Shown: one piece after another, positions 22,539-37,321 of the stretch | Layout of the letters: each line of letters begins with the position of its first letter | How positions within the stretch are numbered: the stretch's first letter is position 1 | Assembly (NCBI GenBank): GCA_001603075.1 | Contig: LVBB01000153.1 | Coordinates: 1 to 53,733 of the forward strand | Direction of reading: 5' to 3' | DNA length: 53,733 nucleotides | Origin: Phycisphaerales bacterium Planc_01 | GTDB taxonomy: Bacteria > Planctomycetota > Phycisphaerae > Sedimentisphaerales > Anaerobacaceae | Position numbers and translations under genes: made by a program | The notes under the pieces: generated by a model | The model's input: only the letters and a program-made list of their open reading frames with translations | Database searches by the model: none | What the model was told of the DNA's origin: nothing

Positions 22539-25496
22539 TCAGAACGGCTTGTGCATCGGCACGGTCCTTCCCGCCAGCCAGGCAATCTCTTCAACCGACA
22601 GCGCACGGTCGTAGATCCGCACTTCGTCGACGGTGCCGACCCAGAACTCGGCGGCGTCATTGACCTGCCGGCCGATGTGCGCGCGACTCCGGGTCAGATT
22701 CCAGTTCTTGGCGGCCGAGGCGACCTCAATCCCGTCGGCATAGAGCTTCGCCACGTCGCCGTCGTAGGTCAGCCCGATATGATGCCACTCCTCCACCCGC
22801 CAGAAACCGGCGAGCATGATATCGTCGGCGTAGCCGCCACCATAGAGATCGGTCGCGTTCATCCCGATGAACATCGCCGTCCCGGTGCCGGGCGAGCCGT
22901 AAGTGGCGATCCAGCGCCAGCCCGCATCCACGACGCTTGACTTGGCCCATCCGGTCATCGATCGGGCCGATCGCCCGGCCGGCCAGCCGGCCGGGTTGCC
23001 GAAATCGATGTACTGATCGACCCCATTGAGCTGGATGGCCTGACCTTGCATACCGGAAACGTACGTCGGCGCGCCGACCAGCGAGCCGTTGTACCCATGA
23101 CCGGAACTGTCGTTGGCATTGCCGTCCAGGGCATAGCGGGCCACCAGACCGGCCGCGTCCGGCTCGATCGGCGCGATCAACTCGACCGCGTTCGGATACA
23201 GGCGAACGTCGTCGATATACAGCAGTCCCTTCGCGCCGGCGCCCTCGATGCCGATGGTCAACTCGGTGACGCTGCGCAGATTGGCCGCCACGGCGGACAG
23301 GTCGATGTTCCACGGCTGCCACAGCGCCCGAGCGAGGTCGGCCGCGTCGCCGTCGTATGGAACCTTGGTGCCGTTGATCTTCAGGTACAATTGGCCGCTG
23401 TTGCCGGGCCGGCCGCGGAAATACAGCCCCAGGCTCTGCACGCCGTGCCGGGTCCAATCCTGCGCCGAATCGAACGAGCGCACCGCCTCGGAGTAGTTGG
23501 GTGCGAGGGTATTGTCGTACTCCAGAGGCATCGATTGCCTTCCGGCGTGGACGATGGTCCGCTCGGCAAACGGTGTGTCGAAATACCCAACCAGCGAGCC
23601 GGTCCCATTCTCCCAACCGTCGATCCAGGCCTGGAAGATGGCCTCCCCGGCGTCCACGTCGTCCGTATAGCTCTCCATGTCATCGACGACGCCAAAGGCG
23701 GCGGTGGAGAAGCTCCAGACGTCGCCTTCCCATCGGCTCACCGCCTCGGCTTCGTTGACCTCGTCCACTCGCCAGAAGTACGTCGCAGCGTACTGCAGGT
23801 TGTCCGGCGCGACCTGGCTGTCGGAAACCGTTGCCAGCGGCGCCAGAGCATCGGGATTGGCACCGATGTAGACGTCGTGCGCCGCGGCATGACGGCCGGG
23901 ACGCCAACCGAGGACCATGCCCGGATCGACGCCCGTAGCAGCCTCGGTCGGCTGCGGCTGCCTGGCCTGAGCGGGAATGAATGTGAACCGAACCTCGCTG
24001 AGGCCGAACTTGCCCATCGTGCCATAGCCGCTGTTGACGGTCAGACGCACGTACCTGGCCGCGACGCCGCCGAAGTCGATCTCCGTGTTCTGGACATACG
24101 TGGCCTTGGCCGTGCCCCTGGCCAGCTCCACGCCGCCCAGAACGGTCCAATCGACGCCGTCCGTCGAGTACTCGATCGTCGCGTCCTTGATCCCGAAGCC
24201 AAGCAGCAACTCAAACTGGACATTGTAGTTCCAGACCAGCATCTGGTGCAGTTGATGGACGCGGTCGAACTCGTACTGAATCCACAGTGGGTCATCGCCC
24301 GCCGGCGCCAGCCACATATCGGTGCTGTCGGTCGAATGCTGATTGTCCGCGTTCAGACCCGACCCGTTGACCGTGTTCTCCGGCCCGGCGCCGTCTTCGG
24401 ACACACCGTTGCTCGTGGCCGTGACATTCGGCACGACGTATGCAAACGGCTCGGACGTGAAGTGCCAAACCTTGCCCTTGAAGATGGCGTTGCTCGGCGC
24501 CGCGTTCACTTCGTCCACGCGCCAGTAGTAGGTCGTCTCGAAGTCGAGGCGTCCGACGGGATCGTAAGTCGTAGCGCTCTGCGCCTGGCTGACCAGCACC
24601 CCTCTCGGATCCGTCCGGCCGGCGTCGTTGACGTCGTCGAAAACCGTTCCAAGGTAGACATCGTGGGTCGCGGCGAATTGCCCTGCCGTCCAGCTCAGTG
24701 CCGCCTCGCGCGGCACATCGACCGCCTCATGGGCCGGATCGGGATTGCTCGCGATCCGCGGATCGGCGGCCACCTTGAGGTACCAGTTGTTGATCCATTC
24801 ACTGATCACCTCGCCGCGGGGGTCATTGTCCTGGCCGGAGGTCTGGAAGAAGACGCCGATGCGACCGCCGGTCACGGAATTGCGGGCAATCATGGGGTCC
24901 GCCCGGTTGCCGTCGGCGGCGATGGCGAGAATCAACTCCGCATACCAGTCGTTCGTCAGGGCATCGAGGTGGATGGCGCGGTCGGTGGAAAAGTTGGCCA
25001 GCGACGGAGTGTACTTTGCACCGTCGGCGGTCACCGTCACGGGCGTATCGTCATCCCACATTTCCATGCTGGGGATGTCCATGATGTTCGGCAGAGCCGC
25101 GGTGCCGTTGGTGCCGGCGCCGTTGACGACGTAGAAGATCCAGTCGCCGGTGTTGATGATGCAGTTGCCGTCGTCCAGGAACAGCTCGATCAGCGAGCGG
25201 TCGGGCTGCGTATTCCCCGGCGGATAGATCGTGGCCGGGCACTGCCCGCAAAGGATCAGAAGGTCGGGAACGCCGTCTCCCGTGTGCGCCACGACCCAAT
25301 CGGCAAGGGCATCGTGTTCCGTTGCGGTGAACCGCAGGACGGGAACAGACGTCACGTTGTCAACGATTTCCTGTATCTCCCGGTCCGCCGCCGCCTGCGA
25401 CCACCAGTTTGCCTGCGTAGAAATCGCAATCTCCAAGGCCATCGCCGTTGTACTGAAGGCCACTGCGATGGTGCATGCCAACAATAGCTTCTTCAT
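22539..25496 (-). CDS. Large secreted multi-domain protein with LamG jellyroll and discoidin-like domains
   Basis: A 985-residue exported protein. Signal peptide about 1-20 (LLACTIAVAFSTTAMA). The order looks like this: an N domain of unknown type (about 21-250), a Fib-III-like segment ending YYWRVDEVN (about 255-355), an F5/8 discoidin-like module (about 360-505, LWIQYEFD...ARYVRLTVNSGYG), a second Fib-III-like segment (about 510-600), a carbohydrate-binding-like module beginning DDMESYTDD and ending YIDDVRLYPN (about 610-770), and a C-terminal LamG domain (about 785-985, VARYALDGNANDSSGHG...VDEVRIYDRALS). These domains bind sugars or surfaces. No catalytic residues were recognised. SD GGAGG stands seven bases before the ATG. 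The xylanase downstream suggests polysaccharide binding. Confidence 0.85.
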   Translation of the reverse strand: MKKLLLACTIAVAFSTTAMALEIAISTQANWWSQAAADREIQEIVDNVTSVPVLRFTATEHDALADWVVAHTGDGVPDLLILCGQCPATIYPPGNTQPDRSLIELFLDDGNCIINTGDWIFYVVNGAGTNGTAALPNIMDIPSMEMWDDDTPVTVTADGAKYTPSLANFSTDRAIHLDALTNDWYAELILAIAADGNRADPMIARNSVTGGRIGVFFQTSGQDNDPRGEVISEWINNWYLKVAADPRIASNPDPAHEAVDVPREAALSWTAGQFAATHDVYLGTVFDDVNDAGRTDPRGVLVSQAQSATTYDPVGRLDFETTYYWRVDEVNAAPSNAIFKGKVWHFTSEPFAYVVPNVTATSNGVSEDGAGPENTVNGSGLNADNQHSTDSTDMWLAPAGDDPLWIQYEFDRVHQLHQMLVWNYNVQFELLLGFGIKDATIEYSTDGVDWTVLGGVELARGTAKATYVQNTEIDFGGVAARYVRLTVNSGYGTMGKFGLSEVRFTFIPAQARQPQPTEAATGVDPGMVLGWRPGRHAAAHDVYIGANPDALAPLATVSDSQVAPDNLQYAATYFWRVDEVNEAEAVSRWEGDVWSFSTAAFGVVDDMESYTDDVDAGEAIFQAWIDGWENGTGSLVGYFDTPFAERTIVHAGRQSMPLEYDNTLAPNYSEAVRSFDSAQDWTRHGVQSLGLYFRGRPGNSGQLYLKINGTKVPYDGDAADLARALWQPWNIDLSAVAANLRSVTELTIGIEGAGAKGLLYIDDVRLYPNAVELIAPIEPDAAGLVARYALDGNANDSSGHGYNGSLVGAPTYVSGMQGQAIQLNGVDQYIDFGNPAGWPAGRSARSMTGWAKSSVVDAGWRWIATYGSPGTGTAMFIGMNATDLYGGGYADDIMLAGFWRVEEWHHIGLTYDGDVAKLYADGIEVASAAKNWNLTRSRAHIGRQVNDAAEFWVGTVDEVRIYDRALSVEEIAWLAGRTVPMHKPF

Positions 25497-26092
25497 TGCT
25501 TTGCCTCCTACAGCGGAACACCGACAAGAAGACGCCTCTCCGGCAACGCGCCGAGATGCCCTTACTCTACAATCGAGCCAGGCGACACCATCAGATCACT
25601 CCTCCTGATCGCCGTGGACCCATTTGGATTTGTCCTTCACGCGGAGCACCTATGGAACCTGCTGACTCACCTCCTTCCGACGGGAATAAACCATCGCTAT
25701 ATGGGTAGACCTGATCCGAAATGCAGAAAGACATGCACACCCCCCGCTTCAGCTTTTGAATCGAGATACACACCGCGTCAGGACCTCCGTCCGACCACCG
25801 TACCACCCGACCCAATCAGAACCCACGGCAAGGGCCTCGCACACGCCATGCCACGTGAGCCCATACGTCTCAACACCTCACTTATATCAGATCGAACGCC
25901 CCTCTACAACAGGTTTCCGTGTCGAGACCCCAGATGACTCGGACCTCTCCGCTCTACCCAGGCCTCTCACAACATCATTTGCCACAGGGAGTTAGCTTCG
26001 ATCCGCAGGCAATTTCCCAGGTAGACCCTCGAAGTGCTTCTCGCGGATGATTCGTCCTTATCGGACGCCGGTTCGGCCCGCCGATTTCAAGG
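25497..26092 (-). other. 596-bp non-coding region: long G/U-rich leader of the LamG gene
   Basis: No credible gene of normal length was found here. The plus strand is C/A-rich, so the minus-strand transcript is G/U-rich, unlike the flanking genes. On that transcript a full anti-SD complement AAGGAGGTG lies at 25676-25668 with no start codon at the right distance. A second GGAGGAG precedes an ATG at 25591 that opens a nine-codon frame (MVSPGSIVE, stop). The true LamG site (GGAGG) follows at 25507-25503. A 74-codon frame ending at 25591 is also possible but unremarkable. The pattern may be a structured leader or leader-peptide control. Confidence 0.4.
25881..25909 (-). promoter_or_regulatory. 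Candidate promoter for the LamG gene
   Basis: On the minus strand TATAAG (25886-25881, 5/6 to -10) is preceded, with a 17-base spacer, by TTGTAG (25909-25904, 3/6 to -35). A start near 25874 would give a leader of about 378 nt before the LamG ATG, matching the odd composition of this stretch. Confidence 0.35.
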
Positions 26093-27487: not shown

Positions 27488-28069
27488 TCAGCGAGTCGCC
27501 TCAGAAGAGCCCGACACACTCGCTAACTCGCCCTCCGGAATCTCGCCATCGGCCCATTTCAGTTCGCCCAACTCATCGGCCTTGACAAAGCGGACACCGC
27601 CATCGACGAAGAGTATGCTGCACCCCCGCCCCCTATGGTTCTCCGTCGTCAGCAATTCACACCCTCCGAATTGATTCCAGCCGAGCGAACTCTCGAACAA
27701 CAGCACAACATCCCCCGCGCTGTCCGGATCGGCGTCCGGATTCATCGCATAATTGCTCGGCCCCACTTTCGTCGCCGGACAGCGAAAGACGCTAACGTCA
27801 ATGTCGCCACCACCGACAAGAAGGTCACACCACTGCTCTGGAGGCGGATATCGCCTTTCGTGGTTGTCTGCATACTGCCAGAGGGACATGCCAAGTTGCT
27901 TGAGATTCTTTATGCAGGTCAGTCTTCTGGAGTCGTCACCCGGCGGGTGCATAAACAGCGGTCCGACAACAGCGAGCAGCACCGCAATCACAAGGTAGAT
28001 CACAAAGATACGTACCAAGAGAGGACCTCTGAACAGCGGCCGTGGCTCTCTCGTCGTCGCCTCACTCAT
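27488..28069 (-). CDS. Membrane-anchored prepilin-like protein with H-x-DG ending
   Basis: A 193-residue protein with one hydrophobic helix near the N terminus (about 16-38, VRIFVIYLVIAVLLAVVGPLF) and an extracytoplasmic part resembling the DUF1559/prepilin-like proteins abundant in planctomycetes. CIKNLKQLGMSLWQYADNHERRYPPP is their conserved helix, and NHRGRGCSILFVDGGVRFV is the C-terminal H-x(9,10)-DG block, here with 10 residues between H and DG. It lacks the canonical prepilin cleavage motif (GFTLIE), so it may be a derived member. Start ATG 28069 overlaps the mfd stop (ATGA), with GGAGG before it, indicating translational coupling to mfd. Role unknown. Confidence 0.75.
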   Translation of the reverse strand: MSEATTREPRPLFRGPLLVRIFVIYLVIAVLLAVVGPLFMHPPGDDSRRLTCIKNLKQLGMSLWQYADNHERRYPPPEQWCDLLVGGGDIDVSVFRCPATKVGPSNYAMNPDADPDSAGDVVLLFESSLGWNQFGGCELLTTENHRGRGCSILFVDGGVRFVKADELGELKWADGEIPEGELASVSGSSEATR

Positions 28070-31000
28070 TGCGCCTCCTGCTTTAGCATCCTTCCCAGGA
28101 TGGTGACGAGGGTTTGGGGCTCGAAATAGTTGGGGGGCAGGCGGAGGTAGACGGTCTTGGGGTCGGCGATGCGGACGGTGCCTTTGACGCTGGCGAAGAG
28201 GGCGTTGGCCTTCTCGCCGGGGTCCGCTCGGAACGAGAAGACCAGGTCGCCTGCTTTCAATGGATTGGGCTGGGAGGCGACGATACTGCGGATGTCCCAC
28301 CTGGCCGCCGCGATGCGCAGCTCCGCCAGGTCGAGCAGGGCCTTGGTCTCCTCAGGCGTCGGGCCATAGACGTCGGCCAGCTCGGCCCGGATCTGATCGA
28401 GGTCGGCCGGCGTCCGGGCGACGGCAATCTTGCGGTAGACATCCATGCGGTGGCGGTCGATAGGGATGTAGTTCTTGGGAATCACGGCCGAGAAGCCCAG
28501 GTCGAGGTTGGCGGTCGGTCCGCCTATGGCGGACCCGACCTTCTCGTTTCTCAGCTCGCGCACCGCCTGCGCCAGCATGTCGCAGTACATCTGGTAGCCA
28601 ACCATTTGGATGTGGCCTGACTGCTCAGGCCCGAGGATGTTGCCGGCGCCGCGAATCTCCAGGTCGCGCAGCGCGATGCGAAAGCCCGCGCCGAGGTGCG
28701 AGTATTCCTCGATGGCCTTGAGCCTCTTGGCCGCGATCGGCGCGATAGGCCGGCTGTTCGGAAGCAGCATATAGGCGTAGGCGCGGTGCTTGTACCGCCC
28801 GACGCGGCCGCGAAGCTGGTGCATCTCGGCCAATCCAAACCGGTCGGCGTCGTTGATAAAGATCGTATTGGCGTTGGGGATGTCCAGGCCCGACTCGATG
28901 ATCGTCGTGCAGACCAGCACATCGGTCCGGCCCAGCACGAAGTTGACCATCGCGTCTTCCAGCTCGCGCTTGCTCATCTGCCCGTGTGCGATGTCGAGCC
29001 GCGCATCGGGAGCCAGCTTCTGGACCTCCATCGCCTTGGCCTGGATTGACTGGACGCGGTTGTGCAGGAAGAAGACCTGGCCCTGGCGGTTCAGCTCGCG
29101 ATAGATCGCCTTGCGGATCAGCTCGGGATGGTAGGCGGCCACCTGCGTGACGATGCTGCGCCGGTCCAGCGGCGCCGTCGTCAGCGAGCTGATGTCGCGC
29201 AGGCCCAGCAGCGCCATGTGCAGCGTGCGCGGGATCGGCGTGGCGGTCATCGTCAGGATGTCCACGTTGACCCGCATTCGCTTGAGGCGTTCCTTGTGCT
29301 CGACACCGAACCGCTGCTCCTCGTCGATAATCAGCAGTCCCAGGTCCTTGAAGCCGACGTCGCCGCTGAGCAGCCGGTGCGTGCCGATCAGAATATCCAC
29401 CTTCCCGGCCCGCGCGCGGGCGACGATGTCCTTGGCCTGCTTGGGCGTCTTGAAGCGGTTAAGGACCTCGACCACAACGGGGAAGTCCGCGAACCGCTCG
29501 GCAAACGTCCGCGTGTGCTGGACCGACAGCACCGTCGTCGGCACGAGCACCGCCACCTGCTTGCCCGTTTCGACCGCCTTGAAGGCGGCCCGCATCGCCA
29601 GCTCGGTCTTGCCGTAGCCGACGTCGCCGCACAGCAGCCGGTCCATCGCCACCGGCTCCTGCATGTCGGCCTTGATCTCGCCGGCGGCGGTGATCTGGTC
29701 GGGCGTCTCCTGATAGGGGAACGACTCCTCGAACTCCATCTGCCAGTTCGAATCGGCGCCGTAGGCGATGCCGCCCAGGGCCTGACGTTTCGCCTGGATT
29801 TCGAGCAGCTCGGCGGCCAGGTCGCGAACGGACTGCGCGACCTTCTCCTTCTGCTTCTGCCAGCGTTTCGAGCCAATCTTGCTAAGCGTCGGACGTTTCG
29901 GGCTGGTGCCGATGTACTTCTGCACCAGGGCGATGTTGGCGACCGCGACCTGGATCTTGACCTTGTCGGCGTATTCGATCGTCAGGTACTCGGCCTTGCC
30001 CGCCTTCTCCTCGACGGTCTCAGTGCCGAGGTACTTGCCGATCCCGTGGGAGGCGTGGACGACGAAGTCGCCCGGCTGCAAATCGGCCAGCGTATCAACC
30101 GGGGCCATCGCGCGGACGGGCCGCTGCCGCCGGCGAAGCGCATACTGGCCGAACAATTCGTGATGGCTGACCACGATCGTGTGGAGCGATTCGACGACGA
30201 AGCCCTGATGGACGTAGCCCGGCAGAAGCTCGAAATTGCGGGGCACCTCGCCGTCGATCTCCTTGACGATCTCGCCGACGCGGTGCATCTCGGCCGGGCT
30301 CTCGCAATAGAGCTGGATGTGGTGACCCTCTTTGGATCGCTGGATCAGCTCTTCGAGGGCCGCCTTGTGTCCGGCCCAGAGCGAGGTGGCCTTGCGTTCG
30401 AACTGCTGGACGCTCCTGACGCCCAGCCGAAGAGAGCCATCGGTCGAAGCGCCGGCAAACCGGCAGACGTGCAACTGCGCCAGGCGCGAGAGCGACTGGT
30501 GAATATCCGGCCAGGAATAGAGGCGGCCGCCGTCCTCGACGCGGGTCAGATAGACCTTGGCGACCTCCTCGACGTCCAACGGCTCTTCACAAACGACGAT
30601 GGCCTCCTCCGGCAGGATGTTCGTGAACAGCTCCCGCTGATCGGCCGTCGCGCCGGCCGTCGCCGCCACGATGCCCAGACTGGCGATCTCGTGCGTAGAC
30701 CGCTGCGTGTCGAGGTCGATCTCGCGGATGCTCTCGATCGTGTCGCCGAAAAACTCGATGCGTATGGCCTGCGAACCGATTGCGGGTGGTGGATTGGGGA
30801 TTGCAGATTTGCCACTCTGGCGTGAATCCGCCATCTGCAATCCGCCATCAGCAGTCCGTGAGATGAGGGGGGCGTAGATATCGACGATGCCGCCCCGCCG
30901 CGCAAACTGGCCCGGCAAGTCCACGGCATCGACCCGCTCGAAGCTGTTGTTGACCAGCCACTCGACGACCTGCTCCGGATCGACGGCGGCATCAGCCTTC

Positions 31001-31422
31001 AGATGCAGCGACCCGGCCTCCAGGGCCGCCGGCTTGGCCACCGGCTGGCACAACGCCTGCACCGGCGCGACAACCAGGCCGCCTCGGCGAAGGGCGTTGT
31101 CGCTGCCGGTCATCAGCGAGACGATCCGCAGCCGTTCGGCGCGGGTCTCGTCGGTGGCGTCGGCCAGTTCCTCCTCGCCTTCCCAGGCCGGCAGCAACTC
31201 GACCCGTCCGGCCTCGAACGTCCGCAGATCGTCCACCGCCCGGTCGGCGTCATCGACGTGGGGACAGATGTAAAGAACCGGACGATTCCGCGTCCGGGCG
31301 ACATGAGCGGCCAGCAGGCGCGCAAAGGAACCCCATGTCCCCTCGACCTGAACGGCCCCCTTCGGGACCGCCCCCAGCCGGGAGATCGCCTGCGAAACCA
31401 CCTTGTCCCGCGACAAATCCAT
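28066..31422 (-). CDS. mfd: Mfd, transcription-repair coupling factor
   Basis: A 1118-residue ATP-dependent translocase that removes stalled RNA polymerase and recruits UvrA. An N-terminal UvrB-homology region (about 1-290) contains GTWGSFARLLAAH and GGIVDIYAP. The RNAP-interaction domain has GDFVVHASHGIGKYLG (about 455). The RecG-like motor has Walker A LLCGDVGYGKTELA (about 605), DEEQ box LLIIDEEQRFGVEHKERLK (about 705) and MTATPIPRTLHMALLG. TRCF C-terminal domain follows. In the UvrB-like region, about 35 residues (ISRTADGG...IGSQA, about 190-225) interrupt the usual sequence, and correspond to a palindromic repeat. The ATG at 31422 has no Shine-Dalgarno, since repeat DNA abuts it. A prepilin-like gene overlaps its stop. 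Confidence 0.96.
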   Translation of the reverse strand: MDLSRDKVVSQAISRLGAVPKGAVQVEGTWGSFARLLAAHVARTRNRPVLYICPHVDDADRAVDDLRTFEAGRVELLPAWEGEEELADATDETRAERLRIVSLMTGSDNALRRGGLVVAPVQALCQPVAKPAALEAGSLHLKADAAVDPEQVVEWLVNNSFERVDAVDLPGQFARRGGIVDIYAPLISRTADGGLQMADSRQSGKSAIPNPPPAIGSQAIRIEFFGDTIESIREIDLDTQRSTHEIASLGIVAATAGATADQRELFTNILPEEAIVVCEEPLDVEEVAKVYLTRVEDGGRLYSWPDIHQSLSRLAQLHVCRFAGASTDGSLRLGVRSVQQFERKATSLWAGHKAALEELIQRSKEGHHIQLYCESPAEMHRVGEIVKEIDGEVPRNFELLPGYVHQGFVVESLHTIVVSHHELFGQYALRRRQRPVRAMAPVDTLADLQPGDFVVHASHGIGKYLGTETVEEKAGKAEYLTIEYADKVKIQVAVANIALVQKYIGTSPKRPTLSKIGSKRWQKQKEKVAQSVRDLAAELLEIQAKRQALGGIAYGADSNWQMEFEESFPYQETPDQITAAGEIKADMQEPVAMDRLLCGDVGYGKTELAMRAAFKAVETGKQVAVLVPTTVLSVQHTRTFAERFADFPVVVEVLNRFKTPKQAKDIVARARAGKVDILIGTHRLLSGDVGFKDLGLLIIDEEQRFGVEHKERLKRMRVNVDILTMTATPIPRTLHMALLGLRDISSLTTAPLDRRSIVTQVAAYHPELIRKAIYRELNRQGQVFFLHNRVQSIQAKAMEVQKLAPDARLDIAHGQMSKRELEDAMVNFVLGRTDVLVCTTIIESGLDIPNANTIFINDADRFGLAEMHQLRGRVGRYKHRAYAYMLLPNSRPIAPIAAKRLKAIEEYSHLGAGFRIALRDLEIRGAGNILGPEQSGHIQMVGYQMYCDMLAQAVRELRNEKVGSAIGGPTANLDLGFSAVIPKNYIPIDRHRMDVYRKIAVARTPADLDQIRAELADVYGPTPEETKALLDLAELRIAAARWDIRSIVASQPNPLKAGDLVFSFRADPGEKANALFASVKGTVRIADPKTVYLRLPPNYFEPQTLVTILGRMLKQEAQ
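30798..30843. repeat. Palindromic repeat inserted in frame within mfd
   Basis: GGATTGCAGAT (30798-30808) and ATCTGCAATCC (30833-30843) are perfect 11-bp inverted arms around a 24-base centre containing CCACTCTGGCG. The sequence encodes the extra residues in the UvrB-like part of Mfd without breaking the frame. Further GATT/AATCC fragments flank it, so the whole insert may be about 100 bp. It recalls dispersed intergenic palindromes. Relationship to the element at 31424-31545 is suggested by the shared CCACTC core and arm style but is not proven. Confidence 0.6.
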
Positions 31423-31423
31423 G

Positions 31424-31545
31424 ACAAAATCAAAAACCAAAGATCAAAAGTCAAAACTCCAAGTCAAAATTCAAGAAGTATCGCCGAAGGCGATTCCACT
31501 CCGCCGCAGGCGGATTGATCTTTGCCTTTTGATTTTTGATTTTGT
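31424..31545. repeat. Terminal-inverted-repeat element between tkt and mfd
   Basis: ACAAAATCAAAAACCAAA (31424-31441) and TTTGATTTTTGATTTTGT (31528-31545) are inverted 18-bp ends differing at one position. The interior has two tight hairpins, CGCC-GAA-GGCG (31482-31492) and TCCGCC-GCA-GGCGGA (31500-31514). It is AT-rich against the surrounding GC-rich DNA, fills nearly all the gap between tkt and mfd, and runs up to the base before the mfd start codon. Probably a non-autonomous repeat. Confidence 0.65.
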
Positions 31546-37133: not shown

Positions 37134-37321
37134 TCGTTGCATCTCCAAGTAGGTCGCGGTTCAGCCGTAGCATCGACCGATTGGCACGCCAACTTGACTG
37201 CGGAACCGCCGGCGCGGAGTCAGACAGGCCGATCCCGCGATATTTCCGCCCGGCCGGAATGCTTGCGGGTAGAAAATGATCCCTTGGGGGAAGAAGGGAG
37301 GCGATACGCCCTATAACACGA

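Follow-up and report, generated by a model that had tools for sequence, protein, structure and literature searches.

Rickettsia palindromic elements (RPEs) comprise several families that are inserted in frame in protein genes (PMC10969869, PMC3733652), and as told in these two accounts an RPE is about 150 bp long and carries a conserved peptide. REPs have been described within replication and repair genes, including uvrA, uvrB, recB, dnaE and others (Di Nocera 2013, PMC3733652); the same article describes different REPs at about one site in the recB of two Xanthomonas species, and GTAG repeats in the Planctomycetes-Verrucomicrobia group, while the word mfd is absent from its main text. At the level of titles and abstract openings, no published report of such repeats in Mfd was found. 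The element described here lies within mfd in the window, which is the whole stretch of 53,733 nucleotides that was analysed, contig C153 of a 5.65 Mb draft genome of 162 contigs (G000). Its features, and those of the gene around it, are as follows.

28066-31440, minus strand: mfd (transcription-repair coupling factor), 1124 codons from TTG
30766-30870, minus strand: hypervariable loop of Mfd domain D2, 35 residues PLISRTADGGLQMADSRQSGKSAIPNPPPAIGSQA, flanked by RRGGIVDIYA and IRIEFFGD
30777-30857: palindromic element of 81 nt, equal to 27 codons, with five GGATTGC-like heptamers on each side of an 11-nt spacer, the second five inverted
30777-30811, plus strand: arm 1, CGATTGC GGGTGGT GGATTGG GGATTGC AGATTTG
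30798-30808, plus strand: perfect 11-bp arm GGATTGCAGAT, exact, in the core of the 81-nt element
30812-30822: spacer of 11 nt, CCACTCTGGCG
30823-30857, minus strand: arm 2 (reverse complement), GGACTGC TGATGGC GGATTGC AGATGGC GGATTCA
30833-30843, minus strand: perfect 11-bp arm GGATTGCAGAT, inverted, exact, in the core of the 81-nt element

The mfd open reading frame (31440-28066, minus strand) matches six Pfam families, among them UvrB_inter, CarD_TRCF_RID and TRCF, and the ATG at 31422 (MDLSRDK, kept in relatives) appears a likelier start than the upstream TTG. The exact 11-bp arms and the in-frame reading of a palindromic repeat, both reported in the preliminary description of this DNA, are borne out: the mfd frame is kept across all 81 nt. 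The ten heptamers match the GGATTGC unit at 55 of 70 positions, and 15 nt lie between the innermost GGATT and AATCC, as against the 11-nt spacer of the heptamer layout. A stop codon is present on the opposite strand of this worn element, where a plus-strand ORF (29062-30825) ends inside it, and none is present in the mfd frame. The termini are CGATTGC and GCAGTCC, with no GTAG/CGTC tag at either end, and an Rfam scan of the window at the gathering score gave no matches. A second palindrome of heptamer type, built of AAAATCA units that contain a stop codon on one strand, is found at 31424-31545 of the window, between mfd and transketolase and just upstream of the likely mfd start; its 31-nt arms are 81% complementary and are separated by 60 nt.

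Like an RPE, the mfd element is palindromic and in frame in an ORF. It differs from RPEs, from which it is set apart by their description, in that it consists of 81 nt of heptamers and that the peptides encoded by its copies differ from one another; moreover, a single protein loop here holds many unrelated families across genomes. Unlike the GTAG/CGTC REPs it is tagless and heptamer-built, and we do not class it as a REP, although it behaves like one; the GTAGGGGCA repeats found in the Mfd loop of two relatives (G005 and G003) do look like such REPs. The heptameric STRRs of cyanobacteria are degenerate tandem heptamers and are mostly intergenic, one reportedly being the subject of a study inside an RNA gene. 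The mfd element is also made of degenerate tandem heptamers, but its arrays face each other as inverted arms across a short spacer, within a reading frame. A MITE would have terminal inverted repeats and a target-site duplication. The mfd element has inverted arms; no empty site was found in the genus, since the loops of G001, G002, G003 and G005 are all filled with other sequence, and the boundaries and any target duplication are thus unreadable.

The 11-bp palindrome by itself is not clearly in excess over chance, as the window holds four perfect 11-bp arm pairs with a spacer of 3-60 nt, compared with a mean of 1.6 over 60 simulated windows, 7% of which reach four. What stands out is the full layout of five heptamers, 11 nt and five inverted heptamers at 30777-30857. 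In a pre-filtered scan of the window and 400 kb of G000, one place besides the shifted readings of the element scored at least 42 for this layout (score 43), and it lies in another heptamer array. Over the element the mfd coding strand folds better as RNA than 200 of 200 shuffles (z -3.0), and better as DNA than 195 of 200.

The strict heptamer pattern RGATKNNRGATKNNRGATT has five matches at four loci in G000, with none for the reversed control: the two arms in mfd, one intergenic locus and two loci in genes. The same pattern has no copy in 400 kb of G000, which indicates that the heptamer family is rare in this genome; it has 41 matches in G004 and 43 in G029 (overlaps counted apart), again with a control of zero. 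Counts from several genomes farther away carry little meaning, the reversed control matching as often there as the pattern itself. A DNA search of G000 with the mfd element gave weak partial matches only, which pointed to the two genic copies. One is in an AAA_15 ATPase (L357), where the in-frame insert reads IGDSGWRIPDGGLDAAPQSAIPSPNSEIGQ, and the other in a LigD_N-type protein, where it reads GGFQMADWDLDSNRPSAI. The LigD_N insert is missing from 19 of 19 other aligned loci, a different repeat-like insert being present nearby in G002; the ATPase insert is partly common to G001 (GGLDAAPKSAIPNPNSEIAQ), with a different stretch preceding it there, and G005 differs. The same ATPase has a second site reading PVGATHASPPPGTK, which is REP-like and exceeds that of most aligned relatives by three residues. 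Four exact copies of the 11-mer lie outside mfd in G000, two of them (L032, L033) within heptamer runs, while the other two (L031, L034) look like chance.

Twenty further heptamer loci were read in G001, G002, G004, G005 and G029, and two of these are in genes with coding flanks on both sides. Such flanks were required because a codon-usage gene caller, in both of two versions, called the antisense of transketolase a gene, and L370 and L376 were for this reason not counted. Lnt of G029 (L365) reads IRLRISDCGLRIGAAALIRNLKSAIRNP in frame and a DUF748 protein of G002 (L377) reads NPQSPIHNPQSA. Most other copies have either a single arm or inverted arms whose innermost GGATT and AATCC are 13-15 nt apart (farther in L366). 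A further stretch of the G029 Lnt, SSVKSQVSSGDSELQTSTLTLQT, is repeat-like as well. Contig C16 of G000 has two inverted pairs GTAGGATGGGCTT.AGCCCATGC of the GTAG-REP type, one inside a called gene at 37221-37276 (L090) and one in an intergenic position at 286599-286661 (L103), by rough gene calls.

Seven and three being coprime, each strand of an array of perfect GGATTGC units gives one repeating heptapeptide whichever frame is read, GLRIADC on one strand and AIRNPQS on the other, and neither strand contains a stop. This openness of GGATTGC is helpful and not special, for 8264 of the 16384 possible heptamers, about half, are likewise open on both strands.

An order-wide search found an Mfd match in 121 of 148 genomes, and 60 of the matches lacking a locus were retrieved for the loop set; the 31 relatives with titles are planctomycete metagenome-assembled genomes (Phycisphaerae, Phycisphaerales, Sedimentisphaerales or unspecified). 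In total 97 distinct loops were read by a loop pattern, with lengths from 6 to 73 residues. The 'about 35 extra residues' first attributed to the insert are too many: 35 is the length of the whole loop, of which the repeat forms 27 codons. Loops that do not fit the pattern stand outside the 97 (L011 and its copy L127, L030, L163, L176, L182, L189, L195, L202 and L203), of which those of L011 and L030, read apart, have 20 and 19 residues. The Mfd loci L025, L063, L066, L069 and L074 and the mfd fragment of G004 are without the loop region, and G098/G149 and G029/G150 are likely duplicate records.

The position of the insertion is the same in the relatives read. The GGATTGC insert is absent from them, except that L049 (G122) has similar heptamers in this loop, in a run on one side only. 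The earlier suggestions of a comparison with the Mfd of relatives and of a search for other copies thus both gave an answer: the insert is not a feature common to the relatives, and the heptamer repeat occurs elsewhere in its genome, between genes and within them. When the loop is left out, the N-terminal parts of Mfd from G000, G005 and G001 are 94.8-95.5% identical in pairs, and the three loops carry three different repeats. That of G000 is the GGATTGC palindrome; a repeat GTAGGGGCAGGCCCC...GGGGTTGCCCCTAC is present in G003, with its first base changed in G005 and in a worn form in G002; and the loop of G001 contains CGTAGGGCGAGC...GACCTACG. Farther away there are GCACGGGC palindromes (L026, L051, L052), palindromes of the ATTCCCGC..GCGGGAATGAC type (L016, L021, L147), other heptamers (L019, L048, L055, L056, L122) and three long, unclassified palindromes (L130, L150, L151); GTAG-type REPs are among the repeats that occupy the loop in relatives.

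A loop was counted as repeat-bearing if it contained any of five motifs, or if comparison with 500 shuffles gave p <=0.01 for an inverted repeat or for lag-7 periodicity. By this measure a repeat signature is present in 18 of 24 loops of at least 24 residues (and missing in 6), in 3 of 45 loops of 19-23 residues and in none of 28 shorter ones, where the five motifs were picked after the loops had been seen and 7 of the 18 long-loop positives rest on motifs alone. With the shuffle tests alone the figures are 11 of 24, 1 of 45 and 0 of 28.

Three of the loop families besides the heptamer were counted genome-wide, with the reversed pattern as control. At one mismatch, pattern and control counts for GTAGGGGCAGGCCCC are 15 and 0 in G005, 16 and 3 in G003, 68 and 1 in G029, 4 and 1 in G000, and 2 and 1 in G002. 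At one mismatch CACGGGCNNNATGCCCGTGC has 61 matches in G036, 57 in G098, 39 in G122, 21 in G150 and one each in G000 and G005, and at two mismatches ATTCCCGCNTNCGCGGGAATGAC has 118 in G014, 58 in G020, 30 in G018, 25 in G010, 10 in G065 and none in G000 and G005, the control being zero throughout for both. The mfd copies of G002, G003, G005, G098, G014 and G065 are among the places listed for these three families.

The element could also have grown where it stands, by heptamer slippage and template switching in a loop of low constraint, with nothing having moved in. In keeping with this, a lag scan of 400 kb of G000 found three arrays at lag 7, one each at lags 14 and 21, and one at lag 12 (in a gene), so that lag-7 arrays are, multiples of 7 aside, the only kind enriched; and the loops of L048, L055, L056 and L122 contain plain heptamer runs of sequence other than GGATTGC. 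(A gapless inverted-repeat scan of the same 400 kb found few elements and is no census, its threshold missing the mfd element itself.) However, the GGATTGC unit, the inverted arms and, for the most part, the 13-15 nt spacer recur at unrelated sites, which is not expected from different starting sequences, and an inverted arm is not made by slippage alone. We consider growth in place unlikely, and arrival of a dispersed repeat the far better account.

Whether the loop is special was judged against other proteins. UvrB, which has the homologous domain, gives a single unbroken match of 1944-1956 bp in 52 of 61 genomes and partial matches in the others, and among 30 aligned UvrB sequences no site varies by more than two residues except a C-terminal one after residue 673 (0-22). 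Among the 14 window ORFs of at least 140 aa, aligned at 50% identity or more to retrieved stretches of G001, G002, G003 or G005, mfd alone has an internal loop filled with repeats; a doubtful ORF at 25488-25934 has a 41-residue gap near its end relative to G005. The alignment of 32 Mfd proteins divides the D2 loop in two, and the larger piece has a standard deviation of length of 7.3; for the loop after residue 113 the value is 7.7. The D2 loop is therefore not the sole permissive loop of Mfd. Repeat-like peptides (VDSCFRGNDKG, CHSERSEES..CAQGDK and GEGVSPLLGGQGQDALAT) were seen in Mfd after residue 113 in L055 and L019 and after residue 480 in L052.

ValS was dropped as an insert-free control, for it has inserts of its own. 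The ValS set comprised 44 loci, 30 from the first search and 14 chosen for broken matches, with one masked and one cut off at the site. In G005, G029, G032, G012, G015 and G025 (L343-L348) an in-frame insert of 220-249 residues lies at one identical site. The G005 insert contains a Y1_Tnp domain (PF01797, E 8e-8, above the cut-off), and the remaining five inserts are 57-74% identical to that of G005. An NHVH motif and a terminal peptide of GQDA or GRDA type occur in each of the six, and these peptides suggest the label of a REP-associated transposase. The insert is absent in G000-G004, the rest of the genus, the ValS of G005 being 92% identical to that of G000. Its third codon positions change far more than its second (0.45 vs 0.11, for example), a pattern as for a protein that would be under selection. 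A profile of the six embedded domains had no match in about 450 kb of G000, although other RAYT subclasses may escape it. Titles and abstract openings gave no published report of a transposase inside ValS.

These observations bear on the reading that the loop DNA is a true insertion target of a REP-associated or other transposase, and that recurrence reflects targeting and not tolerance. In various genomes the same loop is occupied by at least four families that have dispersed copies, and the Y1-type domains in ValS share one site in six genomes, as targeting would have it. On the other hand, the repeats have no common end or target sequence by eye, several are without a GTAG tag, and other Mfd loops (after residues 113 and 480) have received repeat-like inserts as well; the clean UvrB of 52 of 61 genomes also speaks against targeting, although plain constraint fits it equally. 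Targeting is in our judgement quite doubtful. A bolder reading, to which we give about the same small weight, is that the D2 tip loop is a landing pad kept refilled since inserts tune UvrA recruitment, that transposases in frame in ValS, an essential gene, spread repeats from within, with a way of life like that of inteins, and that short palindromic repeats are a regular source of new protein sequence in these planctomycetes.

In E. coli Mfd the insertion site corresponds to the few residues that lie between 172 and 179. The N-terminal part of Mfd (345 residues) was modelled from 32 sequences with a pTM of 0.80, and the model matches E. coli Mfd (2eyq, Z 25.8) and domain D2 in structure 4dfc, the UvrA/TRCF complex (85 aligned, rmsd 1.6, Z 12.7). 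Its only segment of at least three residues with pLDDT below 50 is 192-215, between the strands 186-191 and 218-225, and the repeat-coded stretch is thus modelled as the disordered tip of a beta-hairpin in the UvrA-binding domain D2. Residues R176, R221, F224 and F225, which flank the loop, are invariant in 32 of 32 sequences, and the E. coli counterparts R165, R181 and F185 presumably contact UvrA. A conserved, lineage-specific functional insert of Mfd that is palindromic in looks only would share its position among the relatives, as is the case, but it is scarcely credible for a stretch that is 6-73 residues long, has unrelated sequence beside Mfd parts that are about 95% identical, and has low model confidence.

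We therefore hold it very probable that a dispersed palindromic repeat, made of inverted arrays of GGATTGC-type heptamers, came into the hairpin-tip loop of Mfd domain D2 in this species and became part of the reading frame. The structure of the element, its in-frame reading, its lineage-specific presence, its other copies and the unrelated repeats in the loops of relatives are all observed. At one permissive loop, separate lineages have each exonised repeats of their own, and this is a variant of the in-frame insertion of REPs and Rickettsia elements and not a unique event. The preliminary description was right in that the mfd frame runs through the repeat, but not in taking it for an isolated oddity, as other repeats occupy the loop, other genes have such inserts, and REPs and RPEs are in print. 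Its term 'essential-type' for the repair factor was overstated, mfd being dispensable in E. coli.

The element would persist since the loop tolerates almost any sequence, since 81 nt is divisible by three, and since the unit is poor in stops. The resulting protein, as predicted from sequence, would have a disordered surface loop that lies next to the UvrA-binding face and outside it, most likely of little consequence. Such tolerance may also let different repeats succeed one another at the site. Candidate routes for the movement of the heptamer element are a transposase, or slippage together with template switching.

Many repeat insertions can here be set against one another within a single protein loop, for which the paralogue UvrB serves as a clean control. 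With existing genomes it can be tested whether the in-frame insertion of repeats is filtered by loop tolerance only, and why repair genes so often figure among intragenic REPs. The finding is also a warning that proteins predicted from such genomes carry repeat-derived peptides, such as those like NPQSAIRNPQ, GQDARAT and SRLRGND.
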